A stretch of DNA of 64,000 nt, taken from positions 2,976,001 to 3,040,000 of the forward strand of contig JAJQJQ010000020.1 of NCBI GenBank assembly GCA_028622995.1, in the 5' to 3' direction. The stretch comes from Panagrolaimus kolymaensis. Lineage: Eukaryota; Nematoda; Chromadorea; Rhabditida; Panagrolaimidae. Every line of letters starts with the position of its first letter. Position 1 is the first letter of the stretch. Shown one piece after another: positions 2,742 to 53,930 of the stretch. Made by a program: the position numbers and the translations under genes. The notes under the pieces are model-generated. The model saw only the letters and a list, made by a program, of their open reading frames with translations, was not told the origin of the DNA and ran no database searches.

Positions 2742-5273
2742 TTAAATTAAACCATTTTTATTATCTATAAAATCTAACGCCTTTTGCGTTGCTTTATCAA
2801 TTTCAATTTTTAATTTTCTTAAACCAAAAATTGAAATATGTAGTTTGTCCCTGAATAATGGTAGATGGGTCTCATCATCGATGGCATCACAAATTCCATT
2901 TTTACAAAAAGCATCTCTGTAATCAAAGAAGAAACACTTGGTACAGTTTACTTTTTTTAAGTAATCGGCCATAACTATTTTATCACCCTAAAAATGCTTA
3001 AAGTACATATAAATAATTCAAAGATTTCTTACTTCTATTTTAGTTTTTAAGTTTATTGGTAAACCGTAAAATCTTCTTCTTAAATATTCCAGTACAACGA
3101 CAGAAGAATGTTCTATTTTTCCGGTACTCATTATTATTGCAGAAGTGTATTTTTGAACAAATTCAAAAGTTTCTTTCCATATCCTCAAGTTTTCTGGATT
3201 GTTATCAAAGCGAAGTGGGCCAACTTGATTACCCAAGAACTGAACAAGATAAACGATATCAGGTTTATAATAAACTAGAGAATCTTTAATAATCTTTGTT
3301 AGTCGATTACATTGAATTTTATGATTTGTTTTAGTTGGGCCAACATGCGGAAAAGAACACGCGCTTCCATAAATAAGAATCAATCGTTTGAATGCAGGAT
3401 TAGAAGTAATAGCTTTAATGACATTTCGTGCAAAGCTGTTCCCTATTAATAAAGCAGTCATATTTGCCTTAGGATTTGCTACCATATCACATTGATGCAC
3501 ATAAATGTTATTTCTTTCAATATTAATGTAAACATTTTTCTTGCAAACCAAGGGCTTTCCAAAAGACATGATGTCATTTTTTATTCTCTCTGCCGCTTCC
3601 AAATCGTTTATTCTTGACCATTCTTGGGGTAGGATAAGTTTTAAAGAAAAGTTTTCTGCCTTTGCAAAAAAATTCATAGTTGTGTTATGCGTGACTTTTT
3701 CATTTTCAGTTACAATCTGTAAAGTTTTTGTTTTTAACAAATAAATAATTACTCTTTGGAAAGCTTTTATTTTAAACCAATATAAATTCTTGATTAAGTA
3801 AAACTTACATGTTGTGTTGCAATAAATGCCACTATGCTTCCATAAATTACTATCAAAACTATCGTTAATTTACAAATGTTCTCGCTAAAAGATATTAACG
3901 TTTTTTCTAATACATAATGTATCACAATAGCAATACTGATAGATATCAAACATAAAATTAATCCTTCTGAAAATAAAATGATTACCAATTTTAAGGTTGT
4001 GTAAATTTTTTAAATAAAAGTTTAAATTTATTTTAACTTTTCCATTAATTTTTCAAAAAATGCATGTTTTTTAAGACTAGAAAATGCTTTAAAAATTTGG
4101 AATTTCAGAGAGTGTTAATGTGCTAAAAAAGATAACAGACAAAAGTTTAACCAAACCTGGTAAATTAAAGGTAGTGTTGTCATAAACATGTCGAGCAAAG
4201 GTTGTTACCGGCCAATGAATCAAATATAAAAGATAGGAAATATTTCCTATAAAAACAAAGATTTCTGAAACTATGGAAGCAAAATAAGTAGTTGAAAAGC
4301 CATTTGATTCAATATGTTCAGAAAAAATAATAATTAAGCTTGTAGCTAATAAAACAATGGGACTCAGAATCATTCTTTCAATAGAAAACGGCAAGAAAAT
4401 TAATGAAATAACGATAGCAAAGAGAAAATTTCGAAGGAGAATATTCGAGCGAAATGTTATCGATTGTGCTAATATTCCAATTCCAAATTGCCATAAACGA
4501 AATAAAGTAAATTCATATTGTAAAATGGAATTTGTTGACGTCAATTGGAAAAAATATGAAACAAAGCATAGAACCAACATAGATGAAAAATAAATTTTGT
4601 AGTTTACATATTTTTTTAAATAAACTATTAATGGAAAAATTAAATAAAATTGCATTTCGACAGCCAAAGACCAACAATGGCGGAAAAATCGATAACTGGA
4701 TCTCTAAAAAAGCAATCTCGCCATATCTCATGTATTTAAAAAAACAAACGATTTCAAAATATGCTAATTCTTCAGTAAAATCATAATAATTTGAAATAAA
4801 AAATATACTTTGTTTTGCATCTTGAATGATAGTTGGATATTCAGAACGAAAAACAGTTATTTTAAGAAATAACAAAGTTAATAAAATAATGCATGCAAAA
4901 ATAGGTACAATTCTTTTTATTCTTCGAAAATAAAAATTCATTAAACTAAAATCTTTTTTCTTATCCGAAGCAAATAACATTGCCATTAAAAAACCAGAAA
5001 TAACAAAAAATCTAGAAAAAAAAATTATAAAAAAGTTTTAAACGTTTTTTTTGTGAAAATTTTAGTTGTATCTTTAATCAGTAAAAATGGTTATCAAAGT
5101 ATGTATTTGTTTCCATTTTCAAAAAGTCAAACAACTTACATATCGACTCCAAGAAAACCATTAGGAAATTTTTCAGGCCAAATATGAAAAGCTAAAACGC
5201 CAATAATTGCAATGGCCCTCCAACATTGAAGATCGTCTCGTTTTTTATGTTGTTGAATTGTTATGCTTGACAT
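2742..5273 (-). CDS. Acyltransferase-3 / SGNH protein (gene A)
   Basis: Exons, 5' to 3': 5273-5140, 5011-4750, 4703-4157, 3966-3809, 3716-3033 and 2987-2742. All junctions are in phase, giving 676 aa, the usual size of OafA-like two-domain proteins. The N-terminal multi-pass acyltransferase-3 domain has its catalytic-type His (AFHIWP, His30), FFVISGFLM, RRIKRI and WSLAVEMQFYL. The C-terminal extracytoplasmic domain is SGNH-like: LLIGNSFA (Ser near 461) and a late DKLHIS (His near 645). The family moves acyl groups across a membrane onto sugars or lipids; the acceptor here is unknown. An inverted paralog at 31318-33764 shares a 987-bp nearly identical tract with it. No break found. Confidence 0.85.
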
Positions 5274-6512: not shown

Positions 6513-7577
6513 ATTTTTTTTTATTAATTGTTTTAATTGAATTGAGACAATTATATCCAAATAATTTTTTATGATTTTTAATAATGTTTTCATTAGAAAA
6601 TATGCAAATTTTTAATAAAATATTCACAAATTTTACTTTTTTTATGAATATTAAGTTTCTTTATTATGAAATTAAAGCGAAATTATTTTTAACGATTTTC
6701 AATGAAATTTTTTTTAACTAAGCTTTTGGATCGTATATTTTTTTTTCTAAATTTAATTGGATTAGCATACAAAACTTTTAGGTATTCTAAACGCAAAATT
6801 TAATTAAAAGTACGCTGACGTTTAGTTTATGAAAAGAATAAACATAGGGAACTTTTTTTATTATTTTCGGTGAGTTTAATCGAAAAGTAACTTGAATATT
6901 TCCTTCTTATTAATTTTTATTGTTCGTTCGTTTTCGATTACTTTTGGTCGCAGTTCCAGGGCTACTAGGCTTCGCTATTTCCCATACATATTATTATTCT
7001 TTTTCTCTCTGTTTTTTTGTATCTTATCTTGAAATCTTTTATATTAAAATAGGAAATTCACCTAAAAAATTTGCATAAATTAGAATGAAACTATATTTTG
7101 TTTTCCAAGCGCGATGAAATGATTTGGGTAATTTTCATATACATAAAAAATCAGCAAAACATGGGTTTGCTTGCTGCGCAAATTAAGTGATTTAACTATT
7201 GTAAGCTTGCTCGATGACTATAACCTTAACTTTTTGCGAATTTTTCACAAGCTGGTATAAATTTTTTTTTAATGGTTCAGTTCATTGTTTATTTTGATTC
7301 GTGCAAAAAAAAAGTTTTAAAGGCTTACACATGTTTCAATTTTTAGGATCTCATTATTGAAAATTAAGTGATTAAAATAGACACGAGTGATAAGATTGTT
7401 CGGGAAAAGTTTTAATTTTTATAAAAGTCAATACAATAACTTTTTGGAAAAGTAATTATTAAAACATAGGCATTAATACGAGTGGCAATTTTGTATTTTT
7501 CAATAAAACAAGTAAGATCGCCGACCGGAGGCAGCGGAGTTTCTAGTAATTATTGTTGCAGACGGCTCAAGAGATTA

Positions 7578-8188
7578 GTGCACAAGATTACTATGTAAAA
7601 AAACAAAAGGCTGTTCAGGAAAAAACTTTTAGACGGCTAATGAGATTAAATTTTTTTTATTGATTTCAATAAATTATTTTATATGTTACACTGAAACAAA
7701 CAGCCGCAGCACCGTCTTCGATTGTTATTACCCAACTTCTTTACCAACTATTTAATATTGAAAAATTTTTTTAAAAATGTTAAAAATTAAAAATTTTGTT
7801 TTATTCTTGATTAGATAAGATGTAAAAGCAACTCGTATATTCGCAAGATTTTTGATGTAAAAAATGTTTTGGTGTAAATTGAAAAAAATAATAATTATAA
7901 GGTCAATTACAAAATAAAATTTTTAGTTTTTTTTTCCAATTTTCTATTGTTTTCTGAAACAAAGCATGTTTGAAAAAAGGTATTTTAAGCAAAAAATTTA
8001 AATATAACTAATTGTCGGACCAAAAATTTTTTTACTGTTAAAAATCGAAGACGGTGCTGCGGCTGTTTGTTTCAGTGTAACATATAAAATAATTTATTGA
8101 AATCAATAAAAAAAATTTAATCTCATTAGCCGTCTAAAAGTTTTTTCCTGAACAGCCTTTTGTTTTTTTACATAGTAATCTTGTGCAC
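7578..8188. mobile_element. MITE with ~145-bp TIRs in DUF229 stop codon
   Basis: Left arm about 7578-7725 and right arm about 8046-8188 are reverse complements (outer ends GTGCACAAGATTACTATG). A TA sits on both sides (7576-7577 and 8189-8190), suggesting a Tc1/mariner-type target. The inner ~320 bp has no gene. The right end abuts the coding end of the DUF229 gene. Confidence 0.75.
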
Positions 8189-10028
8189 TAATTAAAATTT
8201 TCATCATTTGGGACAGCAACTTGTATAATAATAGGCTCAAAACTAGAATCTAACTCATGCATAATGCAATCATTTCGCAAAGGATACAATTGTTTGTTAG
8301 CATCTTCGAATATTTGTTTTATTATTTTCGAACCTAAAGGATCTTGAGGCGCTAATAATGTCACATTATAGCGACAAAGACAATATGCTGGAGAAATACC
8401 CATTGAAAAGCAGTCACGATCAGGTAATTCTTGAAATAAATTTTGCCCATGTAAAGTTATATTTTTCGGTATTTCAACATTTGACATTTTTGCTATTTCA
8501 ATAAGTGTTGCATACACGTCGTAATGGGTTACCATTTTCTGAGTGTTGGTATTTAACGCTGCTACAAATTTTGCATCATTTCTAAATGATTTTGGCAGAG
8601 AAATAAAAAATACGGGGTTGTTATTTTCATATGCTACCACCTCTTCAAACCGATAATAACCATATGTAGGGCCATGATCTGCCATTAAAATAAAGAAAGA
8701 ATTGTCAAGCTAAAAATAATTTTTTATTTATTAATAACTTTTTTTCAAAAAATTGCATTCCTTTTTAAGTTCTTAAAAAAATTCTTTTGCTTTGATTGAA
8801 TTAATGTTTCTAAATGCCTATAAAAAATTTGTGCTAGGATTTTATGGATTTATTCAAACACATAAATAAATAAACAATTTGCTTCAAAAAAATTTTCTTA
8901 GTTGTGTTTCACTTTAATACCATTATACCTTTTTTCTTTTAATAAAAATAATTAAAGTTTAGATTAGTTAATTATTAAACATACTTCTTCTTTTTGTTTA
9001 ATTAAAAATTCGACTAACATATCATCAGCAGCAAACAAGGTTGAAGGGCCGTCATGAGATAATCGAGTATTCCAAGTAAGAGAAAATTTTGGTTTATTAC
9101 CGTAACCAAAATTAAACTGTGATAATGCTTTAAGCATGTAATTAAAAGTTATTGTATAGCACTGTTTTATATAGCTAATAGAAAAGTTATTGAAAAATCG
9201 CCACAACATATGCATTGGTTTTACCTTATCAAAATAAAAGACTGAATAAACATCCTCGCTTAGAAGATATGCGTATCCGCCGCGTTCAAAAATATTTCCA
9301 ATATAATGTGATTGAAATGTTTGAGAATCATTGACGAATTTAACAAGAGTTGAAGGCACATTAGGATTTAAAACTTGTTTACCTATAAAGGCAGCATGCC
9401 CATTTGGGTTTGAATTGAAACCGACTTTGTTCAAATATGGAAAATCAAAGGCTGATAGCTCATGTTCGAGATAATTTAGTGACTTTGGAAGTGATCGAAT
9501 TGCATGTGATCGAGAAGTGGAATCTAATACAAGTATGTGAACGCTATATCCATTCGTAGCCGAAATTTTTTTAGGTTTAATTTGAAAATAAGGAGCATTA
9601 TAATATGGTTTTCTTGAATGACCTTCGATAAAGCATTTAACATTAAAAATATCACAATCCACTGGCTTTGATATTCATTCCCAAGTATTGTGTACATAAT
9701 TATTACCAGATATATGGTTTAAGCATCTCCATTGGCAGGCTGTTTTATTCATTGCTAATGTTTTATTTAGCATTAGAAAATCATTATCAAAATATGTTAA
9801 ATCATTTATTTCTTCTTTGCAGTTTAAAGGTTGTGAGGACATATATGGGAATATGGCTGGATCCCAAGGATTAGATAGTTTAAGTTTACAAGTAGGACCT
9901 GAGGTGAATAATTTTTGTAAACAGTTTCCATCCCATGTAACATCGGCAACGGTTTGATAATATAAAATTAAACCAGAAGAAATTATAAAAATTAATGTGA
10001 AAATAATACATACCAATTTCAAATTCAT
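8188..10028 (-). pseudogene. DUF229 sulfatase/phosphatase-like gene, in-frame TGA
   Basis: Exons 10028-8985 and 8709-8188 join in phase 0 (522 codons including stops). The N terminus is a signal anchor (LVCIIFTLIFIISSGLILYY). DUF229 features are an N-terminal Cys-rich stalk, VDCDIFNVKCF, the LVLDSTSRSHAIRSLP block, and MADHGP (metal-site Asp-His). The family belongs to the alkaline phosphatase/sulfatase fold and is expanded in nematodes; substrates are unknown. A TGA at 9675-9677 interrupts the stalk between NTWE and ISKPVDCD, and I find no intron that removes it in phase. Hence a nonsense allele, pseudogene or assembly error. The terminal TAG is formed by the flanking TA plus the first base of the MITE. 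Confidence 0.75.
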
Positions 10029-17888: not shown

Positions 17889-20800
17889 ATGAGAAAGCGA
17901 AATGATATTCAATGGCTTCGAGCTTTAGCAATTTTAGCTGTTTTGGGATTTCATATTTGGCCCAAAGTTTTTCCATATGGTTTTCTTGGAGTTGATATGT
18001 CAGTGATTTTAATTTCTGCAAATATTTACATAAAACTTATTTTTAGATTTTTTGTAATTTCGGGATATTTGATGACTTCAATTTTAGCAAAAGCAACAAA
18101 CCAAAGTATTTTGCAATTTTATTTACGCCGAATTAAAAGAATTTTTCCAACATGTTTACTCATGATTACAGGCTTTACTGTTATTGGAGTTTTTTATTTA
18201 TTGCCTTCGCATTTTGAGTATCTCAAAAATGAAGCTTTATGGTCTGCTTTTTTCGTCAACAATTTTTCCTCCATGATCACCGAAAAACCTTATTTTGAAC
18301 TTGCAAGTTTATTAATGCTATTAAAGGAGATAAAAGAGTTGTGATTTTCGCTAAATGCATTTAATCTTTAAGTATGAAAAATTCAACGGATGAGGAATTA
18401 TTCGAAAAAAGTTTGTAAAAAGAAGGCAAATGAAAGCCAACGATATCGATTATTTGCGTAATGCTAGACAAAATTAAATTCAAAAATTTTTACTTTATTT
18501 TTTTCGCGAGAATGTGCATAGAACGAGCTATTTTCACTTTCATTAATTTAAAAAAAAGCGAACATTATGTCGGATTTAAGAGGGCATCAAAATGAATTTA
18601 TAAGTTTTTACAACTGTGAAAAATCGGCTAAAATCTGATAAAAAATTTAGGTATCTGAATTCAAATTTTTTCTCCACACTTGGTCACTTGCAGTTGAAGT
18701 TCAATTTTATCTAATTGCACCATTTTTGATTAATTTTATTCTTACAAGATCCAATCCATTGTGGTGGATTTTGATTATTGCAGGAATTTCATTATTATCA
18801 CAGCTTTTAATTCCATTCGAAACTATTTCTTTTGGATTAGTGTTTTGTCGAATTTGGCAATTTTTATTTGGTACAGCTGCCTTCCATTTTTGTAATGAAA
18901 TATCTAATTTTCAAAACAAAGAATATTCACAATTGTTAGATTTAAATGAAGAAGATTTAATTAAACTGGAAACAACAATAATTAAGCCAAAAAAGATATT
19001 TTTTATATTTGCGACTCTCATGAATTTGACATTTTTAATATTAATTTGTTTTATTCCATTTTCTTTGGACCTTGTTAAAGTGAAACCGCAAATCTTTCGT
19101 TTTATTTCAACAATATTAACTGCTGGTTTCATCGTTTTAATTGAAATTCACCAAATTTTATTACCCAGAATCTTTGATTGCGCATTGGTTTATATTGGAG
19201 ATGCATCATATGCCATTTATTTAATTCATTGGCCAATTATTGTTTATTTTAAATACCACAAACTATTTGATTATTACGGTAAGTAAACACATATATGAAT
19301 TGTATGTAGATTGTGAAAAGAATGCTTTGTGCAAAGAAACAGATTGATTTGAATTTGGGGTTAATCTAATAAAAAATTCGTTTAACATTTTTAGGTCCTT
19401 TTTTTGTTTTAATGTGCTCGCTCATTATCGGGATTTTAACTCATGAATTCTTTGAAAAACAAATTGGTAGAGGTTCGTTTAATATTAATGGAATGTTTCT
19501 AGCATTTTGTTATTGCATATTGTTTTATTTAATGGCTTTTGATCAATCACATTGGCTAAATAAATCGGTAAAATTTTGAATTTTTTTAGTATTACTAAAT
19601 TCTTTTTGCGTGAAAGGATGATAATTACTCGTTTTCCTTTTTTTATAGAATTATATAAAAGGCAACGAAGATGAAGCTGAATCATGCAAATCATTTTATT
19701 ATGAAAACGGTTGCAAAACAGATCCTCTAATCGAAAAATACCTCACAAAACGGCCAGCTAAAAGTTTTTTAGATCGATATTGTTCGTTTGAAGTAAGTAA
19801 AATATTTATCTTACGAGAAACATGAGACTTCTTTTTTAGCTTAATCCTCCTCCAGCTAATAAGACTGTGTTAATCACGGGGAATAGTTTTGTTTATTTTC
19901 AAATTCGAGGTATTTTGAATGCAATAAAACAATCAAAACATAAATTTTCAAAAGTTTATGTTACTACCCATCCTGGCTGCAGTTTAATTGTTGGTCCAAT
20001 GAATAGAGGAATTATAAGTTGGAGTTGTAGTAAACGATTTTATGGTACATATGATGCATTATTAAAAGCTTTAAGACCTGATATTCATATTCATACAGCA
20101 AGGTAAAAAAAAGAAGACTTTTTAATTTTTTTCTTCTTATTTTTAGACTAGATCATGTTAATGAACTTAAACATTATCCTGCGGTTAATATGACCGAAGA
20201 TGGAGCGTACAAAATTATTAAAACAACCGTTAGTTTTTTGGCAAGCCTTTCCAAGCGTTTAATTATAATTGAACCAACTCCTAATCTAACCAAAAAGTAA
20301 GTTAATTTTTAGCTCAAAAATTTAATATGCCTATGCAATTTTTTTAGAACGAACTATCGGAATCCTCTTGCTCTTGCGCAAGCAATTTTAACAAATGGCT
20401 CATTATCTCAATTTAATATAAGTATAAAGGTAAGGTGCATTGCAGGTTGGGATAAAATGTGATTGAAAAAATCTGCTATATGACTTATAATATTAAAATA
20501 AAATAATTTAAACCTAACTGTGAATTTAAATTAAAGGTGTTTCTTTAGTATATAAAAATTGTTAAGCTTTCGCATAACAAATTTTTTTAAATATAAATAA
20601 CAAAACAAAAGCCAATCAAATTTTCCTGGCGCTGGACGACGTACTCCATTTTTTAAAGTTATTTTAATCGAGTACGATAATAAATATTTTTAAAAAAAAG
20701 ATTTATTTTATCTTTAAAGAAAAAAAATAGTTTTTAGGTATATCGTGATTCCCAGTATCCTTCGTGGAATAGAGTCAAGGAAGTCGTAAAAACATGTAAA

Positions 20801-20974
20801 AATTGTGTTGTTGTTCCGACAGAAAAATTATTTTGTAATGATCAATTTTGTCCATTGGTTGATCCAATAACGCATTTGGGTAGATATTGTGATGATGGCC
20901 ATATAACACCAAGAGAATCGCAACTTTTAACACCTGGTTTAATTAGAGCCATTGATGATACAGTGTTTATATAA
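17889..20974 (+). CDS. Acyltransferase-3 / SGNH protein (gene F)
   Basis: Nine exons in phase: 17889-17998, 18047-18302, 18651-19278, 19395-19567, 19649-19792, 19840-20102, 20147-20296, 20348-20429 and 20738-20974 (680 aa). The acyltransferase-3 domain has the key His (GFHIWP, His22), FFVISGYLMTS, RRIKRIF, LHTWSLAVEVQFYL and a late YLIHWPI. The SGNH part has LITGNSFV (Ser near 453) and CDDGHITP near the C terminus; a Cys-rich linker joins them. The second intron (18303-18650) begins with GCAAGT, a GC-AG intron. It is likely a membrane O-acyltransferase acting on sugars or lipids; acceptor unknown. Intact. Confidence 0.88.
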
Positions 20975-22319: not shown

Positions 22320-24139
22320 ATGAATAAATACAGTTTTTTTCAACAAAATTATAGAATACCACGTTTCTTCATTTTACGATATTTATTACTTAGTATATGT
22401 TTATTTGTATTTATTTTCTGCTTACTTAATTTTTTTATTAAAATTGTAAGTTTATTTAACAAAATAATATTTAAGTAATTTTTTGGAACTTAAGTATTTA
22501 CCAAAGGATGATAATGATTCAAAAAATGTGTTAGAAGATGATGATGGTTTACGAATCCGAACATTGCCGCAGAATTCAAACTTTTCTGAATTTGCTTTTG
22601 TCCGAAGTGCATTTAGGGTTACTAATGAAAAAATAAGATTGTCTATTGTAAAGCATTATAAGAATAAGTATGACTACTTCAAAATGTTTGGGATCATTTA
22701 TATTGAGTCATTTTAGCATAACCCTCACTTATATGTATGGAAAAAAACATGGCGAAGTCTCACTTATTTGTCATAAGCGTCAATGTCTTGATTTCTTTTC
22801 ACCACATTGTACAATTACGGGCTCCATTGGATTAATAATGGGCCTTGATCAAAATGACAACAATAATTTTATTTCTCTGCACTCAGCTGCCACTAATACT
22901 ACTACTCATATTAATATAACTGATGTAAGATTTAAGACAGCAAAAGAACCATATGAAACATCTGATTATCCACATAAGCTTGGAATTTGTTTACAACCAA
23001 TATATTTAATGACAGATTATACACTTATAATTCAATTTTTTGAATATTGGCTGAATGAAGGAGCAACAAAATTTTATATTTATTGGGAATCATTTAGTCC
23101 TGAAGTACAAAAAATGATAGAATTTTATATGAAAACTTCAAATGCCGATATTGAATTAGTTGAATGGTCACAATTACCATTTGTGGCAGGAAATGAAAAA
23201 AACTTAACAAATAATCCAAATGCATTTTGGTTTCGACTTGAAGTATTTTTAAGTATCTTTGATTGCATGCATCGAGCAAGGTATGCGAGATTAGAAAATT
23301 TATTACATAATTTAGCTTTTATTTAAAGATATAAAGTCAAGTATATTGCACAAAGTGATCTCGATGAAATGTTTTATGTTTCTAACAAAACCCTTTTTGA
23401 ATATTTAGAAGAAATAGATGAGCGTAATTTCAATATGGCAAATCTACATTTTCGTAGCAAGCGCGTTTATTTAAAAGTTTGTTTAAAAAAATTTCACATT
23501 AAAAAATGATTGTATCATTTTTTTAGACTAATGTTACTGAAATCGCAAACCCAAAAGACTTTTCTTTTGAAGCTTTTAAACACTTTTCTATCGACTTAGA
23601 AGCATTTCAAAGGCCATTTTATATTAAAATAATTCATCGTCCAGAGAGAGTAAGCCTAATTTTCGTTAAAGCAATAAAATGTTTATAGGAATTTTTTATG
23701 GATATTCACAGATCAAACAGGCCTGAAAGAATCCCAGGTAGTTCAAAATCATATAAAACCGTTTATGCGTCCGCTACGGACGCAACTGTTTGGCATTTTC
23801 GAAGAATAAAGGATCATTATAAAATTTCAAAGATTGAAGAGACATCAGTATTTAAGGAAGTTGCTGAAATATGGAAATCAAATTTTCAAAAGCGTATACA
23901 GACTAAAAACTTGAGTAAGAGTTGTTCTATAAAGTATAATAAATTCCAACTCTTTTATTTTAGTAAACCGAAAATTGTGGACCAATTATGGAATGAACGT
24001 ACAATTAGAAGAATGTCGACAGCGGCTTGATAAAGTCCGTTTAAAAAGATGTCATAGTTTATTACCATGTGAATTAGAAATTAATACAACTAAAGTTATA
24101 AAATGGAGCAAGGCTATAAATAGTTGGAATTTTGTATAA
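22320..24139 (+). CDS. GT92 glycosyltransferase (gene J)
   Basis: Seven exons in phase: 22320-22445, 22495-22667, 22717-23280, 23329-23476, 23527-23649, 23689-23914 and 23964-24139 (511 aa). An N-terminal signal anchor (YLLLSICLFVFIFCLLNFF) predicts a Golgi type II protein. GT92 (former DUF23) features are CLQPIYLMTDYTLIIQFFEY, EGATKFYIY, WSQLPF, a DLDE acidic motif, RPER and the VWHFRRIKDHY block. Characterised nematode GT92 members add galactose to core fucose; donor and acceptor here are not shown. The inverted paralog K (44675-46496) has the same length and exon plan. The stretch 22947-23282 is identical to K. Confidence 0.88.
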
Positions 24140-24858
24140 AAATTATTAAAACGTCGAAAATTTGTTTCAACAAAAATAAAAATATATGGGCAATCTCAAC
24201 CATTTATTGAGTATACTTTTCATCTTATAAAAAAAAATATTTAAGAAAGCGTTAAAATAAAAAAAACTTTTTTTACATTTCGTTTTAACGAGAAAGAAGA
24301 AAAAAAAGCTAATAATTCTTTTCAAACCCTTCATAAAAGAAGGCAAGCTAGTTCGCAGTTCTATATAGGCATAGCTCGAGGCCCTGAAGCGCCTAGGACC
24401 GGTCTGGTCCCAAAAGTTTTGTCCAGGGCCGGACTTTGACAAAAAAATTTTTTTTTTCTAGGCATGGCTCGGGGCCCACTTTTTTGGGCCCCGGCCCGGC
24501 CCCGCTAAAAACCAAATTTTTGGGCCCTGGCCCGGCCCCGGGGCCGGGCCGGGGCTTCGGGGCCTCGAGCCATGCCTATTAAAAACACAAAGGAATGATC
24601 AAGACATAAAAAAAAAATAAGGTTCGGGCCGGGCCAGGGCCTAAAAAAAATGGGCTTTTTTGAGGGTCTGGATGGGCCAAACCCAATTTTTTCAGGGCCG
24701 GGCCCTAAAATTTGGGCCCTGAGCTATGCCTAGTTCTATAGTAAAGTTGGTATTTGGAAATGACATGCTTTTATAAATTTTTGCAGGATTTTAAATGGTG
24801 TAATAAAAATCGAAATAAATTTTATTCAAAATAAAAACTAATAAGAAAATTTTAAAAA
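24140..24858. other. Intergenic between convergent genes J and I
   Basis: Mostly filled by a GC-rich MITE (24366-24732); no gene seen. Genes J and I end toward each other here. Confidence 0.5.
24366..24732. mobile_element. GC-rich hAT-type MITE, TSD GTTCTATA
   Basis: Termini TAGGCATAGCTC and GAGCTATGCCTA are inverted. An exact 8-bp duplication GTTCTATA flanks it (24358-24365 and 24733-24740). The 367-bp body is packed with GGGCC/GGCCC words. A second inverted pair (TAGGCATGGCTC ... GAGCCATGCCTA, 24459-24578) lies inside without its own duplication. Confidence 0.9.
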
Positions 24859-27296
24859 CTAATCATCAGTAAAATTGCATAGTGCTGGAAAAAGGTAACA
24901 ATGTAAAGTTAAAAATTTAAAAACATCTTTATCTGGATCGAATAAATATGGTAAAGAGATCAAATTCTTATTTTCAGCATCATGGCTTAAAACTGGTTTC
25001 CGGTATAACTGGTTTATCGGTATTTTTGTTAAATCTTCCAGGTGAGAATGAAAATCTTTCATTTCTGTCAAATTAATACGCATTAAATTATCTGTAAAAG
25101 GTAGAAAATAAAATATAATCAAAAGGTGTTTCTAACATAGAAAACTCTTATTCTTTTTTTACTTACTCATAAACATTCCAAATGCAACGTCATCCGTTGT
25201 ACCCTTTGCAATGTTTTGAAAAGCATTTATTGAAATTTTTGGGGCAATCATTTGTATTGTTGCATATGATAAGCATACTCCGGCTCCACCTGTTCCAAAT
25301 TTAAATGGTTTCTATAAAATTTTAACAATTTTTTTAACTGCATTTTTATATACCTTTCCAATGGGTAAACCATTATTGGCAGTCATCATTCTTGTAACGG
25401 ATCGTTTACCAATATAATACGGTACATCAGGATCGAATTGAGCTAAGGTTTTTAAAAGTAATGGAATATTTACATAATTATCGTCATCAAAATGACATGA
25501 CCATCTAAAAATTTTTTGTTTCATGTAAAACAAACGACTTTAAGTTTTCTTTAAGCTTACGTTGCATTTTTTTCAATAAGAATTTTTAATTCAATTGCCA
25601 TTTTACATATCAACGGCCACCTGTAATTGTTAGTAAGTTGTAAAGTTTGAATTATCAAAAGAAAAATGCATTTTTTTATTTATCATAAATTTATTATTAT
25701 TTTTTCTTAGAAATTTAAATAGCAATGAAAGCTTTTTTACTTACCGATCGTGGCCTACTTTACAATGAGAATTAATGAGTTTTCCATTAAGCGATTCATT
25801 TAATTTCACATCGTCTGTATCAGTAATAAAGTATATCTACAAAAGAATTGTTCGAATTAATACTTTTAATAAAATTATTCACGTTACGTTTTCTTGGTTA
25901 AATTGATACCATGTTTTTAGAATAGAAAGAACCCTAGTTTCATGATTTGCTTTGGTTGTCTTGATAGTAATAACAAGGTCAGAATAATTTGATGACATGG
26001 ATTCAGGAAACTTTAAGTTGTTTAATGCAACATAACTATTAACTCTCTTAAAAAAAATTATAAAATATTTAAATTGTAAAGTTTATTTACTTTGTCATAA
26101 CATAAGATTATAATAGCGGTATATAATAATAAAAGGCCACACGAATATATTAAGGCTTTCGAGTTATTAAAAAGTTTTTCAACTATGTGAAACAATAATA
26201 AAGCGATAAAAGTTGTAATTAACAGAGTTAATATTATTAAAACTAAAAAAGAAATATAATTATGAAGTTCTCGCTTTTTTTTAAACTCTTACCTATAGGA
26301 TTTACATTTAAGGTAAATTTTAAGAATATAAATACCGGCCAATGAACAATGTAATAAGCATTTAAAATCATATGTGGATACAAAACTTTGCGATCTAAAG
26401 TGTTGTAAGATCTTTTATTGTTAACGGTTTGATTTTCAAATGTAATTAACACTAAGCAACATATAAATGAACTTATTAGTCTAATAAAAGTTGAAGGCAA
26501 GTAATTTTTTATAGGTAGCATAATGACAACCATCAAAAATAACCATAAAATGAATATAAAAATTTTTCTTCTTAATGGTTTGGAAATTTTGAGAAAAATA
26601 TCGTGAAGACTATCCAAAGCTTTATAATGATCCGAATACATAGTTGCAAATCCCAAAGATATTTGCCATATTCCTTCAAATCTTAATTTAAACCATATTT
26701 GGGAAATAAAAGAAAATATTCCCAAAACAAGTATAGCTTTTGAAAAGTTTTTGTTAAGCGGAATGAAGCTAAATATAATTATAACCAGCAAATAAAACTG
26801 CATTTCTATTGCAAAAACCCACAAATGTTGGTATAACTTAAAAGATAAAATCTAAAATTTAAAAATTTCCAACGGACTCTATTAATAAATTAATTACCTG
26901 TTTGTAAAAACCTTTTTTGTTCCAAATAATTTCTAAATTAATTGAAAAGATAGCTGCCCAAAAAGTTTCTGTTTTAACAAATTCAAAAAAACTTGATGGA
27001 AATAAAAATAAGCTTGCAATTAATGTAATGCATGTGGAAAGAAGATATAACGGAACAAGAAACCTTAGCTGGGCTATACAAAAATTGGATAATGTTGGGA
27101 TTGAATGCGATGCCAAAATATATCCTATGGTAACAAAATATCTAAAAATGTATGATTTATCAATGATTTAAAAAAAAAATTACATGTCTGCACAAACATA
27201 GCCTTGAGGAAATATATTTGGTTGCATATAGTACCAGATCAATGTAATTATTGCGACGATACGTAAATAATGTACTGTATGAGAAGAAAAATACAT
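24859..27296 (-). CDS. Acyltransferase-3-like / Fringe GT31 fusion (gene I)
   Basis: Ten exons in phase: 27296-27184, 27141-26898, 26851-26293, 26242-26091, 26046-25888, 25836-25745, 25620-25561, 25504-25354, 25311-25167 and 25091-24859 (635 aa). Residues 1-356 match the acyltransferase-3 membrane domain exon for exon (QHLWVFAIEMQFYL, AYYIVHWPVF). The key His of the siblings (GFHIWP) is replaced by Tyr23 in WYYMQP, and FFVISGYLM is changed to YFVTIGYIL. Residues 357-635 are Fringe/GT31-like: SDLVITIKTT, WSCHFDDDNYVN, GTGGAGVCLS and TTDDVAFG. The Fringe part has no Met or membrane anchor of its own. I infer an inactive acyltransferase serving as a multi-pass anchor for a lumenal glycosyltransferase in the place of SGNH. 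Confidence 0.82.
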
Positions 27297-27983
27297 ATTG
27301 TAAGCCAATAAAATATAAGCTTTTGTTTTGTCACAAAAAAAAACAAACATTTATTAATATTCAGTTGATTCGAATAGTAGTGAATCGAATTTTGTTTTCA
27401 ATAAAACAGAAGTGATTTTTTTTTTTACGATGCGATTAGTTATGAATTGAACAAATAAAGTCTTTTGGTAATTTAAACACCTGCTAAAAATTTTAGAAAA
27501 GAAAAGCGATGAAAATTAATATATGTATATGTTGGTCAAGTGGCTAGGGCGCACAAAAAAAAAACCAGGCAATTTCTATGTCAAATAAAATAAGTATGGC
27601 ATGGGACACAACCAGAGCTGTCGATGCATCGAAATTCTTCTATTTTCGATTTCGATTTTCGACGCATCGAATCGAAAATACAAAAATACTTTAAAAAGTC
27701 GAACTTTTCGATGCTCGATTTCGATGCATCGAAAATCGACAGCTCTGGACACAACTCGGCTGAACTTTCCAAAAATTAGATTTAGCTTTTCTTTACATGC
27801 AGAACTTTTTCAATACTGTAAGAAAATCATTGTCTGACACCATCCTTAATTCATATATTTAATAATGTTTGATAATTTTGCTTTATTAAATTACAAATAT
27901 TAGCAACATTTTTACAAGAAAAAATTTTAATTTTTAAATTTACGGATAAAAATTCTAATAATTACAAATTATTAATTTGTAAT
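27297..27983. other. Intergenic between genes I and G
   Basis: Upstream of gene I and downstream of gene G, both on the minus strand. It contains one 135-bp MITE; no gene seen otherwise. Confidence 0.4.
27613..27747. mobile_element. hAT-type MITE, TSD GACACAAC
   Basis: Termini CAGAGCTGTCGATGCATCGA and its complement enclose 135 bp rich in TCGAT words. The 8-bp duplication GACACAAC is exact at 27605-27612 and 27748-27755. Confidence 0.9.
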
Positions 27984-30913
27984 TTAATCGTCTTTATCTA
28001 TAGCTTTTATTAAAGCTGGAAGTAATCTCATGCCACCAAATTCATTTAAATGATTTCGATCACAATACAATGAAAGTTTAGTTTTTTCATCCACCAAATG
28101 GCAATAATCTTTTTGACACAAATATTCAGTTGAATTAATAATTAAGCAATTATGACAGAGTTTTAAAGCCGCTTCAACACGTAGCCACGAATTTTTGCTG
28201 CGATTTTCAAAATCCTAAAAATAATATTAATAATAAAATGTGATAAAGATTTCGTCCCTTTTTTTAATAGGAAAAGAAAAGGGATAAGCAGAAAATTTTT
28301 CATCACGCCAAAAGCTTTTTTTTATACTGAGCTGTCGATTAGCAGAAGCAAACTTCACCGAGAGAGGACTACTCATTTTTTTATTTATAGAAAAAATGAA
28401 ATCGACATAAATAAGACCCTGAAAAAAAGGTGGAATATTTTGTTCTTAAAATCAACACCGGTTCATTCATACGTTTACGTTTGATGGAATAGGTCAAAAT
28501 TTATTCTCTTCTTTTTTGGACTTTTGATAAATTCTTTTATTAGAAAAAATTTTTCTTTCTTACTTCCATTGTTATTTTTATTTCGTTAACATTTCTCTTT
28601 TGACTCAATAACCTTGCAACGTTTTGAGGCGTGAATGTTGAATCCATTTCTGGATGGGGTTTGATATAAATTAATTTTGAAGTGTGCGTTGAATAAAACT
28701 GAATGCTTTTATTTATTTCAGTGAATGCATAATCTAACGTCAAGTTTTCAGGTAGTTGGATGGCAGTGGAATTTAACTGATCAAGTCTAAAAAAGTTTTC
28801 ATTTGCTATACCAACTCCTAAGCGTTAAATAAATAAAATCGAAAACTTTATTCAGATTTTCTTTAAACAAATGAGTTATTAAGATTTTTCTGGTTACAGT
28901 TCAAAATAAAACTCCTTATCTTACCTTTGATTTATAATAATCAAATCCGGCTTAATTTCTTCAACTAACTTTTCATATACACCAATTAAATATGCGCATT
29001 GGCAAGTAGATATATCTTTATTTAAGTTTTCAAACGTTGTACATGCTGATCTGCTTATAAAATATATTTTGGAATATTGCTTTGCATTTTTAGATTGTTT
29101 TATAGATAAGAACATTGCCTTGTTTTGTACATGAGCATGACTATTTCCAATAATCAAAGCGGTTTTGGTTCCACGTCGATTAAGCTTAAATATAAAGTAA
29201 AATTTAGAGAAATAAATCTTTTAACAAATCTATAAAAATTAAATTTCTGTCGAAAGAAACCAAATATTTTTTTCTGTGACGACGAGAGGAGATGATAACA
29301 ACTCTTATTTTTTTTTAAATCTCTCACATTATAGGCACAGTTTGCTGAACGACAACTTAATAACTTTGGGAGAATACGTTGTAGGAGATTATCTTGTCTA
29401 CATGGAAATGACATTTGATAACATATTTTATGCAATCTACGATTTTCCAATATAACAGTATTTGGATTCTCGGGAAATTGAGGAAATGTCATGGCGAAAA
29501 TAATAATTAACGCATAAAACAGACTTATGCATACGCCATTTACTTTAACATTTTTAGTTATTAATGGAGACTCAAAAAAGTAATAAATTGATATTGAAGT
29601 GGTTGTGATAATTAGAAATAATAACGTTATCCCTAAAAAGTGAAAATTTGCTAATAGGTTGAATATTAAAACCGCAATTTTTGGTATATAGTTTCATAGT
29701 TGCGAAAACAACCGTGAAATTTTTCAATGAACTATACATGAACGTAAAGAACTCGTCTGTGCTCAATCCCCTGGTAGTAAAGACCTCTTTTATCATATGT
29801 TTTTCCAAGTACTTACTATAGTTTGTAATATCATAATAGCGTAAAAATATTATAGCCGGCCAATGAACCATATAAATTGTATATGAAATTTCACCGATAA
29901 AAAATAAGATACGAAACAAATATATTTCTGGATTAAAAAAATAATTTTCTTCCATTGTAATTAATATTCCTGTCACAAGCGTCGTAATTATGCGTAACAA
30001 AATCTTAATATTTTTGTTGATAATATGAAAAATGTTAAAAGAAATAAAAAATAAAACACAAAATAAAGCAGCTTGAAAATATTTATATTGGTGTAAAGTT
30101 TCTTTATTTCTCAGCTTCTCGGTATTTTTAAAGCTATAATAATAAACAGCCGTTCCAATTAAAAATTGCCAAATTCGACAAAATAAAAGCTCGAAAGCGA
30201 TTTCAGAATTTTGGATATTCAATTGAAAGAGTAATGATAGAAGAGAAAGGATATTAGTAATTGGTATGGGTGAAAATAAATTATTATCAATAAAATGGAA
30301 TAAAAATGGTGCCAAAACATAATATTGTACTTCAACAGAAAGTGACCAAGTATGAGTTAAAAAATCATATTCGTTCAACTAAAAATTTTTTAAACTTTAC
30401 TGCTCACAGTTTGTAGCTATGACGAAAGCCGGCATTTTTTTAGTCGATTCTGGACTTTGCCCAAGCTAAAAACCATGGTAATACTTACAACTTCAAAGTA
30501 ATCCTTTTTCTTGATCATTGGAGGTATATTATTTGCAAAAGCGATGGACCACCAAGATTCTGTTATCAAATTTTCCATATCACTTTGAATCAATAAAAAC
30601 GATCCAAACAATAAAGTTATTAATATCACCAATAAAAACACGGGTGCTATGCGTTTTATTCGTCGAATATAAAAATTAATAACTTTATTAATAAAATTTC
30701 CTTTCGATCGTAACCAAATCAAAGTCATTAAATATCCAGAGATAACAAAAAATCTGAAAACATTTTTTATTGGAGTGAAAAAAATGTGGTAAAAACTTAC
30801 ATATCCACACCCAAGTAACCATGAGGAAAAATAGAAGGCCAAATATGAAATCCCAAAACAGCTAAAATAGCTAAAGCTCGAAGTAATTGAATATCATCAC
30901 GCTTTTTTTGCAT
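27984..30913 (-). CDS. Acyltransferase-3 / SGNH protein (gene G)
   Basis: Seven exons in phase: 30913-30801, 30753-30489, 30378-29817, 29632-29328, 29184-28925, 28786-28564 and 28214-27984 (652 aa). The acyltransferase domain keeps GFHIWP (His23), FFVISGYLMT, RRIKRIAP, LTHTWSLSVEVQYY and IYMVHWPA. The SGNH domain has LIIGNSHA (Ser near 430) and CDRNHLNEFGG near the end. The Cys-rich linker before GNS is also present in F and H. Predicted membrane O-acyltransferase with a lumenal SGNH partner domain; acceptor unknown. It is head-to-head with gene A2, 404 bp between the start codons. Intact. Confidence 0.86.
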
Positions 30914-31317: not shown

Positions 31318-33764
31318 ATGACATCCCCATTGATTCAACATAAAAAACGCGATGATTTACAATATTGGAGGGCCATTGCAATTATTGGCGTTTTAGCTTT
31401 TCATATTTGGCCTGAAAAATTTCCTAATGGTTTTCTTGGAGTCGATATGTAAGTTGTTTGACTTTTTGAAAATGGAAACAAATACATACTTTGATAACCA
31501 TTTTTACTGATTAAAGATACAACTAAAATTTTCACAAAAAAAACGTTTAAAACTTTTTTATAATTTTTTTTTCTAGATTTTTTGTTATTTCTGGTTTTTT
31601 AATGGCAATGTTATTTGCTTCGGATAAGAAAAAAGATTTTAGTTTAATGAATTTTTATTTTCGAAGAATAAAAAGAATTGTACCTATTTTTGCATGCATT
31701 ATTTTATTAACTTTGTTATTTCTTAAAATAACTGTTTTTCGTTCTGAATATCCAACTATCATTCAAGATGCAAAACAAAGTATATTTTTTATTTCAAATT
31801 ATTATGATTTTACTGAAGAATTAGCATATTTTGAAATCGTTTGTTTTTTTAAATACATGAGATATGGCGAGATTGCTTTTTTAGAGATCCAGTTATCGAT
31901 TTTTCCGCCATTGTTGGTCTTTGGCTGTCGAAATGCAATTTTATTTAATTTTTCCATTAATAGTTTATTTAAAAAAATATGTAAACTACAAAATTTATTT
32001 TTCATCTATGTTGGTTCTATGCTTTGTTTCATATTTTTTCCAATTGACGTCAACAAATTCCATTTTACAATATGAATTTACTTTATTTCGTTTATGGCAA
32101 TTTGGAATTGGAATATTAGCACAATCGATAACATTTCGCTCGAATATTCTCCTTCGAAATTTTCTCTTTGCTATCGTTATTTCATTAATTTTCTTGCCGT
32201 TTTCTATTGAAAGAATGATTCTGAGTCCCATTGTTTTATTAGCTACAAGCTTAATTATTATTTTTTCTGAACATATTGAACCAAATGGCTTTTCAACTAC
32301 TTATTTTGCTTCCATTGTTTCAGAAATCTTTGTTTTTATAGGAAATATTTCTTATGTTTTATATTTGATTCACTGGCCATTAATAACATTGATTCGTCTT
32401 GTTTATGATAATCGAACTTTTAATTTAGCAGGTTTGTTAATCTGGCTTGTTTACTTTTGTATTTCTACTTAAAATCTGTTTTTTGAATGTTTAACTTTTA
32501 ATATTTTTTTCTAATAACAAAGGTTACTTTTAAGAAGGTTTTGTTTTATTCAAGATCTCTATTTTTCTTGCTTACATTATACATCATATAATCTAAAAAC
32601 CTTTATTCGAATATTGTGAAAGTGTTAATAAACTTGTAATAGTTTTAATTCTTATTTATGTCAGTATATTTATATACACTGCAACACAGGAGAAATTCGT
32701 AAGTTAAAAAAAAATCAAACTTTTTATTATTTGCACTATATTTCTTAGGAATACCACATTTTATTTTAAAAAATTCTTATCCTTTAGGCTAAAAACACAG
32801 TTAATACAACAATGGAGTTTTTTGAAAAAGCTGAAAACTTTTCAGCCAAACTGGTGCTTCCGCAAAATTGGTCACGCTCAAACGATTTGGAAGCAGGAGA
32901 AAGAATAAAAAAATTTTTTTTTTTTTTTGGAAATTCTACGCCTTGTCAGAAAAATGATCACATAAATATTAATAAAACGGATACTTATTTGCATCAATGC
33001 GATATTTTGGTAAATCCAAAAGCAAATTTAACTGTTTTGTTAATTGGAAATAGCTTTGCACTAAATATTGTAAAAGCCGTTACAGCAAACCCTGCATTTA
33101 AACGAGTGATATTAATATTTGGAAGTGCTTGTTCTTTTCCTTATGTTTCCCCTACTAAAGTAGCTCATAAAACACAATGTAAAAAGCTTACAGAAATTAT
33201 TAAAGAAGCTCTTGTTTTTTATAAACCTGATATTGTTTATCTTGTTCAATTTTTGAGTGATCTAGTTGGTACACTTCGATTAGATTACAAGCCTAAAAAT
33301 TTGAGAATATGGAGAGAAACTTTTGGTTTTATGCAAAGCCACACTTCCGCCATTATTGTAAGTAATGGAAAAATTGAATTTTCTTATGCCGTAGTATTAG
33401 AATTTTTGAGGAAACGGTTTTATGACCTACCAATCGATTTTAAGACAGTAACGGAGGTAAGCTAATATGGCTAAAAATTTGTCGAATATGTATCATTTTT
33501 CAGAAAGATAATCATGATATGGTGAACTTCTTTTATGATGTTAGTTGCTCAAAATGTTTCTTCTTTGATTACAGAGATGCTTTTTGTAAAAATGGAATTT
33601 GTGATGCCATCGATGATGAGACCCATCTACCATTATTCAGGGACAAACTACATATTTCAATTTTTGGTTTAAGAAAATTAAAATTTAAAATTGATAAAGC
33701 AACGCAAAAGGCGTTAGATTTTATAAAAAGCCAAACTAATTTTAAAAATCTAACATATTTTTAG
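31318..33764 (+). pseudogene. Acyltransferase-3 / SGNH paralog with nonsense codon (gene A2)
   Basis: Exons 31318-31448, 31577-31838, 31885-32431, 32535-32698, 32788-33456 and 33504-33764 are in phase (678 codons) and match gene A exon for exon. Key motifs remain: AFHIWP, WSLAVEMQFYL and LLIGNSFA. A single TAA at 32594-32596 falls where gene A has GAA (VLEKT), in the last membrane segment, and would cut off the whole SGNH domain. The stretch 31365-32351 is nearly identical to gene A including introns, and 33555-33683 is identical in the last exon; the SGNH exon between them has diverged. A U-run (FFFFFG at about 32915-32930) replaces other residues. A recent pseudogene or an allele with one nonsense change. 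Confidence 0.8.
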
Positions 33765-51605: not shown

Positions 51606-53930
51606 TTATAATTCTATTCTAATTTTTGAAAAAGCTTTTTGTAATACTGGAACCATTCTTTCCGCTCCAACGGGTGAAAGATGAGCATTATCACAATAAA
51701 GGGATAATTTAGATTTTTTATCATATAAATAAAATTTTCCATTTTCTATAAAAGCATTTCTCATTTCAATTGGTTCACATTTGGAGCAATCTTTCATTGC
51801 TGCTTTTATTTTTTCCCATCCTGGATCAACTTCGGCTTTAACTTTCTGAAAAAAGAGCGAAGTGAACTTTTAAAATTCTGTTGCGGGAATCCTACCTTCA
51901 TTGACTGCACCCATTTACTTATATCTTTTCCTTGGGCAATGGCTTTGGCCAAAGTGGTGGCTGGATTATATCCAAGTGTTGGATGAGGTTCAATATGAAA
52001 TATTTTTTTAGTGAATGGAGACCAAAGTTTAAAATATTCAGCCAATCTTTTAACTACTGAATCAGTTGTAAGATTTTTGGATGCCTTTTTAAAATTATCA
52101 TTACCACTCAGCCTGAAATCGAATTATATTCACTAAAATATTATTCCAATTTTTTCTATCAACTTTTCTGTTATAATTAAAACATCAGGTTTTAATTTTT
52201 GCAAGAATTTCACCGTTTTATTCATAATTTCATTACATTGCCAGTAACGTTCGTATCTTTTATTAAAAGATTCAAAGGTCAAACACGCGGGCCTTGCAGC
52301 AAAATATAATTTTTTATAATCATTTTTGAAAGCTTTTTGAATTGCATAAAGCTGTCGCAAAGCAAAACTATTTCCAGTAAAGAATATTGTTGCATTTCCA
52401 TTTCCTTCAAACGAACAGAAATATGCCGCAGTTTTTTTAGGTTTGGGAGCAACTTCTAACATTATTGGATCCCAATTACATTCATTGGAGATTGGAAGGT
52501 TTTTGCATTCCTTTGCAATCTCTTGATTTTTCGCTATTGCTGGATCGGCGACATGCTGAAAAACATTTAAAAAAATAAGAGAATGCTTATTGCTAAGAAA
52601 GTTTATCAACAAAAAACTTTTCATATCTTTGACATGATTTTTACTTACAGAAAAACCAAGTCCTTGAGTTTGAGTTAATAAAATGGCTGAAAATATGTAA
52701 AATAAAACGGCTATGAAAAATACAATTTTAGATGAATGATGTAAAATAATTTTTTCGAAACAGTGATATTGAATTATTGTCGGAAGAATAATAATTCCAA
52801 GAATTTGCCATAGATCTTAAAAAGAATCTGATATAAAAATTTTTAAATTTGTAACTAACTAACCTAATCCTTCGAACCATCCTTGATATTTGAATAAAAT
52901 TATAATTGGCCAATGAAGCAAATAAAGAGAATATGAAATATCGCCTATATAAATTCCAATTTTTTTGAAGACAGCAAATTTGTCAGATAAAGTTGATTGA
53001 TTTCCATAATAAATTGATAATCCACTAAGAATAATAGATAAAAGTCTAATACCCGCAACAAAAAAATAATGTTCAGAAAGTTGAGGCATAAAACAAATTC
53101 CAATGAGTGCAGTGAAAATAAATAAATTTGGATTGAAGGTATTTTCTCGAAATGTTTTTGTTATTTTTTCAACTTCATCCTCATCCTCGATGATCAATTT
53201 AAGTTCTTCAGGGGTTTCAGATATTTGAGAATAATCTTTAGTATTTTTGTTTTTTTGATAATGAAAAACTAAGGTTCCCATAAAAAATTGCCAAATTCTA
53301 GAAAAAATTAATCCAAAACTCAAAGTTGGAAAAGGAATAAAAGTTTGAAACAAAAAACTTGAAATAAAAATAATTATTGTTGGAATTAAAGGATTTTTAT
53401 TTGAAGAAATTGGAATAAGTAAAAATGGAGCCAAAAAATAATATTGTATTTCCAAAGACAACGACCAAGTATGCAACAAAAATTTATATTCACTCACGAG
53501 TTTGAAATATGTTTCTTTTTCAAGCATGCTTTGAAAATTTGTCGCAAAACTCATCGCCCAAATTGCATCCATTTTAAGGAAATCATAATCTGTGGAAATT
53601 AAATACGCTGAAGTTACTGCAAGTGTCAAAAACACGTCGAGAAGATATGCTGGTAGTAACCTTTTTAATCGACGTTCATAAAATTGTATAGAAGATTTCA
53701 TCGTTAATGATTTCCCATCCAATATTGAAGTCATCAAATATCCGGAAATAACGAAGAAACTAAAAAAATGTTGGCTAAATGTAAAAAAATGAAATTCATT
53801 AAACTTGCATATCAACTCCAAGATAACCTTGTGGAACATAATTTGGACGTAAATGAAATCCCAAAACTGCAACAATGGCAACAGCTCGAAGAATTTGAAT
53901 ATCACAATTTTTATATTTTTTAGCCTTCAT
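51606..53930 (-). CDS. Acyltransferase-3 / SGNH protein (gene H)
   Basis: Six exons in phase: 53930-53809, 53759-52864, 52815-52649, 52555-52164, 52112-51896 and 51845-51606 (677 aa). The acyltransferase domain has GFHLRP (His26), FFVISGYLMTS, RRLKRLLPAY, LHTWSLSLEIQYY and YSLYLLHWPI, with an acidic loop (IIEDEDEVE). The SGNH part has FFTGNSFALR (Ser near 458) and CDNAHLSPVGAER at the end. The first intron begins with GCAAGT (GC-AG type). One large exon replaces exons split in F and G. Predicted membrane O-acyltransferase; acceptor unknown. Intact. Confidence 0.87.

Follow-up and report, generated by a model that had tools for sequence, protein, structure and literature searches.

We describe a gene of the nematode Panagrolaimus kolymaensis in which four exons of an acyltransferase-3 (AT3) membrane domain run in frame into six exons of a Fringe-type glycosyltransferase. 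It lies on the reverse strand of the window, by which we mean the whole analysed stretch of 64,000 nucleotides (GenBank assembly GCA_028622995.1, contig JAJQJQ010000020.1, positions 2,976,001 to 3,040,000), in the company of AT3 genes that carry an SGNH domain and are here called siblings. Our reading of the sequence, to which we give a probability of roughly 0.7, is that the ten exons are likely spliced and translated as one membrane protein, with an AT3 pseudoenzyme as the eleven-helix Golgi anchor of Fringe. Comparison with both parents shows that, in the predicted gene, the four AT3 exons stand in for the Fringe anchor exon and Fringe stands in for SGNH. The gene model is composed as follows.

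24859..27296, reverse strand: the AT3-Fringe fusion gene, 10 exons, 635 codons
27296-27184, 27141-26898, 26851-26293 and 26242-26091, reverse strand: exons 1-4, the AT3 half, residues 1-356
27228..27230, reverse strand: codon of Tyr23, which is His in four of four siblings and corresponds to the essential His25 of the bacterial acyltransferase OafB
26047..26090, reverse strand: intron 4, the junction, 44 nt, with an in-frame TAA at 26060-26058
26046-25888, 25836-25745, 25620-25561, 25504-25354, 25311-25167 and 25091-24859, reverse strand: exons 5-10, the Fringe half, residues 357-635
25888..26046, reverse strand: exon 5, 159 bp, counterpart of the 156-bp exon 2 of ordinary Fringe

Joined, the ten exons give 635 codons without a stop, and a frame check found the phases consistent throughout, exon 4 ending at 26091 in phase 0 and exon 5 starting at 26046. 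The ten exons, their phases, both of these boundaries and the gap of 44 bp had been read from the letters in an initial annotation by a model, and all of them hold. A spliced aligner, its splice profiles trained on 32 other introns with intron 4 left out, was run with other proteins as queries: siblings A and D show correctly where exons 1-3 end and where exon 4 begins, and sibling D also yields the donor at 26091; siblings B and C as queries found the first boundaries, after which the alignment derailed. On the fusion DNA, exons 6-10 were returned exactly by four of four Fringe queries. The same ten exons were returned when the fusion model's own protein was the query, which is a consistency check only. 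Intron 4, being 44 nt long with an in-frame TAA, must be spliced. Its length falls inside the commonest class (42-51 nt, 16 of the 32 other introns), its donor scores 6.2 bits, higher than that of 12 of the 32, and its acceptor scores higher than that of 11 of the 32.

The siblings that serve for comparison are the following.

27984..30913, reverse strand: sibling A, AT3-SGNH, directly upstream of the fusion
17889..20974, forward strand: sibling B, AT3-SGNH, with Pfam AT3 and SGNH matches
51606..53930, reverse strand: sibling C, AT3-SGNH, with Pfam AT3 and SGNH matches
2742..5273, reverse strand: sibling D, AT3-SGNH, with Pfam AT3 and SGNH matches
31318..33764, forward strand: sibling E, an AT3 gene with no clean frame after its third exon

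The introns of the fusion correspond in place to those of both parents. Intron 1 stands in an identical alignment column in the fusion and in four of four siblings, the position of intron 2 is common to the fusion and three of the four (it is absent in C), and intron 3 is matched exactly in three, sibling A being one column off. At most four columns from fusion intron 4 there is a phase-0 intron in B, C and D, and A is without it; this sibling intron near the intron-4 donor sits just past helix 11, ahead of the SGNH domain. The ordinary Fringe gene of the same genome (contigs C33, C37 and C25) opens with a 69-bp anchor exon, MKHLLCFTFAIILFFLIIFNPYT, followed by a phase-0 intron and a 156-bp exon, and its later introns have phases 0,2,2,0,1; the fusion has the 159-bp exon 5 and then the same 0,2,2,0,1. 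Fringe's own anchor exon 1 is absent from the fusion, the AT3 exons occupying its place, and the 44 nt between the halves leave no room for it. Matched intron phase is a textbook condition for exon shuffling. The meeting of an AT3 donor place with a Fringe acceptor place, both in phase 0, thus points to exon shuffling in which AT3 replaced the single anchor helix of Fringe, and the in-frame fusion proposed from the letters gains support from this join of the siblings' phase-0 intron (three of four) to the phase-0 first intron of ordinary Fringe. Two candidate remnants of a Fringe anchor were rejected: the NSY of exon 5 resembles the NPY with which the panagrolaimid anchor closes, as if exon 5 started inside it, and in the ordinary gene the intron lies directly after NPYT; a reading of intron 4 that resembles a Fringe anchor (P0064) was set aside as AT-rich and hydrophobic.

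In siblings A-D both the AT3 and the SGNH domain are intact and above the Pfam cut-offs, with SGNH at the position that Fringe takes in the fusion, as the initial annotation stated; sibling E, whose model does not stay in frame, was excluded from the alignments. Scored with a profile built from the AT3 parts of siblings A-D, the AT3 half reaches 133.9 bits, and none of 402 other sequences (200 shuffles and as many block shuffles, its reverse, and the Fringe half) exceeds -1.7. Its identity to the siblings is 23.6-28.7%, that of the siblings among themselves 28.5-42.0%. By sequence, then, the AT3 half is related to the four AT3-SGNH siblings and has diverged from them. NCBIfam gave only matches to this half that were below cut-off or irrelevant, and a search for SGNH between 24.0 and 27.5 kb found no match at E up to 0.01. 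The AT3 half retains 33 of the 68 sibling-invariant columns, including R12, Gly44, Gly186, Tyr286, His289-Trp290-Pro291 and Glu327; the glycines of transmembrane helices 2 and 6 and the tyrosine of helix 9 are among the retained positions. Eleven membrane helices were assigned to it through the sibling alignment, helix 6 being weak.

The residues on which AT3 chemistry depends have largely been replaced. Mutagenesis found the motifs R-X10-H and RXXR essential in AT3 enzymes (in passages of PMC9833829), and the corresponding essential residues of OafB are given as Arg14, His25, Arg71 and Arg74 (in passages of PMC9833829 and PMC12423673). Aligned through the siblings, the fusion keeps the first as R12 and has H23Y, R62Q and R65F at the others. 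The initial annotation was correct, according to the sibling alignment, in reporting Tyr23 for the catalytic-type His and a changed FFVISG loop (YFVTIG in the fusion); the loss of both RxxR arginines it did not mention. Its proposal that the acyltransferase half is dead is supported, as judged from sequence: of the four residues that mutagenesis marks as essential (in passages of PMC9833829), three are lost. Acetyl-CoA binding and acyl transfer would then have been lost from the AT3 half.

The Fringe half matches PF02434 at 204 bits (cut-off 21, E 3.2e-60), and a search of the PDB returned Manic Fringe 2J0A (3e-36, 128.7 bits), then a beta-1,3-glucosyltransferase at 9.1e-10 and no third match. 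FDDDNY, TGGAG, TDD and FHSHLE are present, so that the DDD, GGAG and DD blocks are indeed kept, as the initial annotation stated; of 49 columns with at least 95% conservation among 159 homologues, 48 have the conserved residue, the exception being Q590, which is K, and the conserved Fringe columns that this half matches take in both motifs and cysteines. The first His of FHSHLE is Arg in three of three ordinary Fringe copies of this genome. With the conserved columns nearly all in place, a live Fringe half is supported. In a tree of Fringe only (24 rows picked from the matches) it groups with Propanagrolaimus JU765, Panagrellus redivivus and JGI Fringe at 100/99. In a second tree with the genome's own Fringe copies (19 rows, two identical rows dropped) ten paralog rows form a clade (100/99) that does not include it. 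The domain makes it a Fringe but the architecture does not, as the single N-terminal signal anchor of the type II form is missing.

The genome (265.8 Mb, 807 contigs; the window is on C19) was searched for Fringe and AT3 copies. Ordinary Fringe is present in three near-identical copies, L013 (C33), L014 (C37) and L015 (C25). At least 12 Fringe paralogs with catalytic exons like those of the ordinary gene were modelled on C6, C38, C68, C8 and C338 (L009-L012, L016-L022), for a total of 15 other copies modelled from 14 genome stretches among 46 PF02434 places in the genome. The models C8b and C338 chain exons of apparently two neighbouring copies, so that paralog counts are lower bounds, and some paralogs are haplotype copies of one another; with three haplotypes counted together, the genome has at least 16 Fringe copies. 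Two loci, L001 (C11) and L007 (C5), were rejected as Fringe loci because tblastn gave no match to Fringe. Of the 48 columns that the fusion keeps, the ordinary copies keep 47 and the twelve paralogs 37-43, in a comparison that is biased toward the fusion, and FHSHLE is altered in all twelve modelled paralogs. A crude search found convincing anchor exons in few paralogs. AT3 or SGNH genes lie at most 10 kb from Fringe copies on all five paralog contigs, and on C68 and C38 a Fringe copy is preceded on its strand by an AT3 or SGNH match, a further Fringe gene standing between the two; AT3 exons joined to Fringe were found in none of the 15 other modelled copies. The raw material for such a fusion, neighbouring AT3 and Fringe genes, thus recurs in this genome.

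The same searches bear on the haplotypes. Sequence 88-90% identical to two pieces of the window, at 51.5-54.0 and 60.3-64.0 kb, is present on C14 and on C34, which makes three haplotypes. Over its whole length the fusion DNA matches nowhere but at its own locus on C19, its 13 other matches being short pieces of Fringe paralogs, and sibling A has partial matches only elsewhere in the genome. As neither has a full second copy, the middle of the window differs between the haplotypes.

Several observations weigh against the proposal of a single AT3-anchored Fringe protein. The acceptor at 26047 was picked by none of the four Fringe queries, three of which take 26011 and one 26045; we attribute this to the stem before the domain not being conserved, and the pairing of N-terminal parts of the Fringe queries with scattered pieces is taken for noise. 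The acceptor scores are 8.6 bits for 26047, -1.6 for 26011 and -0.8 for 26045, and an exon starting at 26010 is also in phase, so that the fusion stands either way, in the latter case 12 residues shorter. The AAG of the intron-4 acceptor is uncommon (2 of the 32 other introns), and the assignment of this acceptor rests on its splice-site score and the open frame; a transcript left unspliced would stop the AT3 half 10 codons past exon 4. Of the domain search that the initial annotation suggested for the 635-residue model, the Fringe part came out as expected, with PF02434 at 204 bits, and the AT3 part did not: PF01757 scores 7.4 bits against a cut-off of 31, compared with 90.6-104.8 for the siblings. 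In the AT3 half, the hydropathy of helix 6 stays below the threshold used and that of the loop ahead of helix 4 exceeds it, so that the number of helices depends on the alignment with the siblings. The branch of the Fringe half is long, at 1.4 versus 0.31-0.53 for the three closest relatives in the 24-row tree and 0.67 versus 0.24-0.31 for two of these relatives in the 19-row tree, which could reflect either a new function or relaxed constraint. Finally, the genome-wide searches found the fusion on one of the three haplotypes only, and the animal may not need it.

An alternative that we consider unlikely is that an old fusion without selected function is being lost in one haplotype. The presence on one of three haplotypes, the divergence of the AT3 half and the long Fringe branch would all agree with decay. 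The reading frame argues otherwise, with 635 codons free of stops and frameshifts and usable splice sites. In a neutral simulation that started from sibling A and applied substitutions only (12-67% identity, 200 runs at each of 6 distances), the AT3 copies accumulated 10-28 stops on average and none was stop-free at any distance. An intact frame in the fusion therefore indicates that the frame was kept by selection for much of its history. The retention of 48 of 49 Fringe columns also speaks against decay; the modelled paralogs keep 37-43 of the fusion's 48, a comparison biased toward the fusion.

Rather improbable, in our judgement, is an operon in which a truncated AT3-only protein ends at the TAA in intron 4 and a Fringe cistron is trans-spliced at 26047. 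Nematodes make use of operons and trans-splicing, the AT3 frame does stop at a TAA 11 nt ahead of exon 5, and the acceptor at 26047 is fit for cis- or trans-splicing. However, the donor at 26091 scores well and lies at the intron place of three siblings. The gap from stop to exon 5 is 11 nt and contains no AATAAA, the only signal scored; a nearby AATAAA, inside GTAAATAAAC, precedes the stop rather than following it. There is no in-frame Met codon in exon 4, and the first Met of the Fringe half is residue 373, three residues ahead of the Pfam match. A downstream cistron would have to begin at this Met373 and would lack an anchor, whereas ordinary Fringe has an anchor exon; moreover, an upstream ATG opens a three-codon out-of-frame reading frame before Met373.

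It is very improbable that the protein is a bifunctional enzyme in which the AT3 half, by an altered mechanism, continues to carry acyl groups or some other ligand through the membrane in cooperation with Fringe. The 33 retained columns out of 68, with R12, Gly44, Gly186, Tyr286, His289-Trp290-Pro291 and Glu327 among them, would speak for it, and the related GWT1 is described as functioning without the Asp of DxxR and without the catalytic His of HGSNAT (in passages of PMC12423673). Three essential AT3 residues are changed in the fusion, however, and SGNH, which AT3-SGNH enzymes need, is absent. That the assembly joined two unrelated genes is next to inconceivable even though it contains no second copy of the fusion, since an accidental join would need to land within just these 44 nt and bring together splice sites of equal phase, the donor and the acceptor of introns that correspond in the two parent genes, and the HiFi reads of P. 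kolymaensis, presumably those behind this assembly, have an N50 of 14.4 kb (in passages of PMC10374039) and would span the 2.4-kb gene. Nor are the two halves placed apart in the long-read assembly, an outcome that the initial annotation had named as counting against it; the window lies inside a contig of 4.04 Mb.

The same architecture was sought among known proteins. A search with the whole fusion, in which 7998 candidates of 0.55-1.75 times its length were scored, returned 63 proteins, 61 with PF02434 and 2 with PF01757 and PF19040, and none with AT3 and Fringe together. With residues 1-372 as query and E up to 1, the search retrieved 17 proteins, every one of them with PF01757 and none with PF02434; the best reached 3.6e-7, and no close relative of the AT3 half was found by this search. 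With Fringe alone as query, the best 120 of 1441 matches all had PF02434 and no other domain. The statement of the initial annotation that no protein of such form had been described agrees with these protein searches and with the open-licence literature, in which no report of an AT3-glycosyltransferase or AT3-Fringe fusion was found. Two Fringe models, one of Ditylenchus dipsaci with an EGF-type part (P0006) and one of Heterorhabditis with CUB and astacin parts (P0049), appear to be either further cases of joined architecture or gene models that were merged.

The closest known systems each share one side of the fusion. With Fringe (O-fucosylpeptide 3-beta-N-acetylglucosaminyltransferase, GT31; Manic Fringe 2J0A and the copies on C33, C37 and C25) it shares the whole catalytic domain at 48 of 49 columns and, with those of its own genome, equal intron phases from exon 5 on, whereas ordinary Fringe has one anchor helix in its own exon where the fusion has the AT3 region. 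The AT3-SGNH O-acyltransferases (OafB, OatA and the four siblings) resemble it in that helix 11 leads to a C-terminal extracytoplasmic domain, and the siblings also in introns 1-3 and the place of intron 4; they differ in that the fusion has Fringe instead of SGNH, with the essential His and both RxxR arginines changed. The Fringe paralogs on C6, C38, C68, C8 and C338 have the same catalytic exons and AT3 or SGNH genes nearby, but all twelve lack joined AT3 exons and differ from FHSHLE. Other multi-pass acyltransferase folds with a different partner are described in passages of PMC12423673 and PMC2824669, namely the NRF-domain AT3 proteins (the nose resistance proteins of C. elegans and DRD of Drosophila), VanT with a serine racemase and Cas1p with an N-terminal esterase domain. 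They show that a multi-pass module accepts other partner domains, yet as described there none has a glycosyltransferase partner, and the partner is cytoplasmic in VanT and N-terminal in the NRF and Cas1p types, unlike the C-terminal Fringe of the fusion.

A multi-pass anchor role of the AT3 half is consistent with the missing Fringe anchor exon and the eleven aligned helices. In OafB, helix 11 brings the SGNH domain outside (in passages of PMC9833829), and by analogy helix 11 of the fusion would carry Fringe to the lumen. If this OafB-like topology is kept, Fringe faces the Golgi lumen, the home of its conserved cysteines and substrates, where the Fringe half may extend the O-linked fucose of EGF-type repeats, or a different fucosylated glycan, with N-acetylglucosamine. 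The AT3 body would be the anchor and possibly a partner surface for active AT3-SGNH enzymes, and such a polytopic anchor may shift the partners of the enzyme or its Golgi zone, possibly to beside the active AT3-SGNH enzymes of the cluster described below. More tentatively, and with considerable doubt, the pseudoenzyme could be a chassis for a Notch-type glycosyltransferase that pairs through its AT3 body with these enzymes and couples fucose elongation to the acylation of worm-surface glycans.

To our knowledge, the Golgi glycosyltransferases of animals are nearly always held by one signal-anchor helix. The fusion, in a genome that also has relatives of either parent, shows such an anchor exchanged for a whole polytopic protein via two phase-0 introns, and it is a transmembrane acyltransferase frame that is maintained without residues essential for the reaction. 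As Fringe is described as absent from Caenorhabditis (in passages of PMC2770060) and this Panagrolaimus has at least 16 copies, the clade is suited to asking what role Fringe plays in nematodes.

The fusion belongs to a cluster of glycan-modifying genes at 2742-53930 that comprises a DUF229 gene, two GT11 fucosyltransferase-like genes, two GT92 genes, five AT3 genes and the fusion itself. Among the AT3 genes, siblings E and D are near-identical inverted copies across their first three exons, and GC donors (GCAAGT) occur at 18303 in intron 2 of sibling B and at 53808 in intron 1 of sibling C. The two GT92 frames, 22652-23326 on the forward and 45546-46148 on the reverse strand, differ in sequence except for a stretch of about 110 residues that is, by eye, identical, a pattern suggestive of recent gene conversion. 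On either side of the fusion gene lies a short stretch of palindromic repeats, at 24358-24740 and at 27576-27780. A repeat some 395 bp long, located at about 7574-8194 and adjoined by an inverted partner of 154 bp, is listed with 100% identity at 35 other places in the genome, a pattern as expected of a young mobile element.
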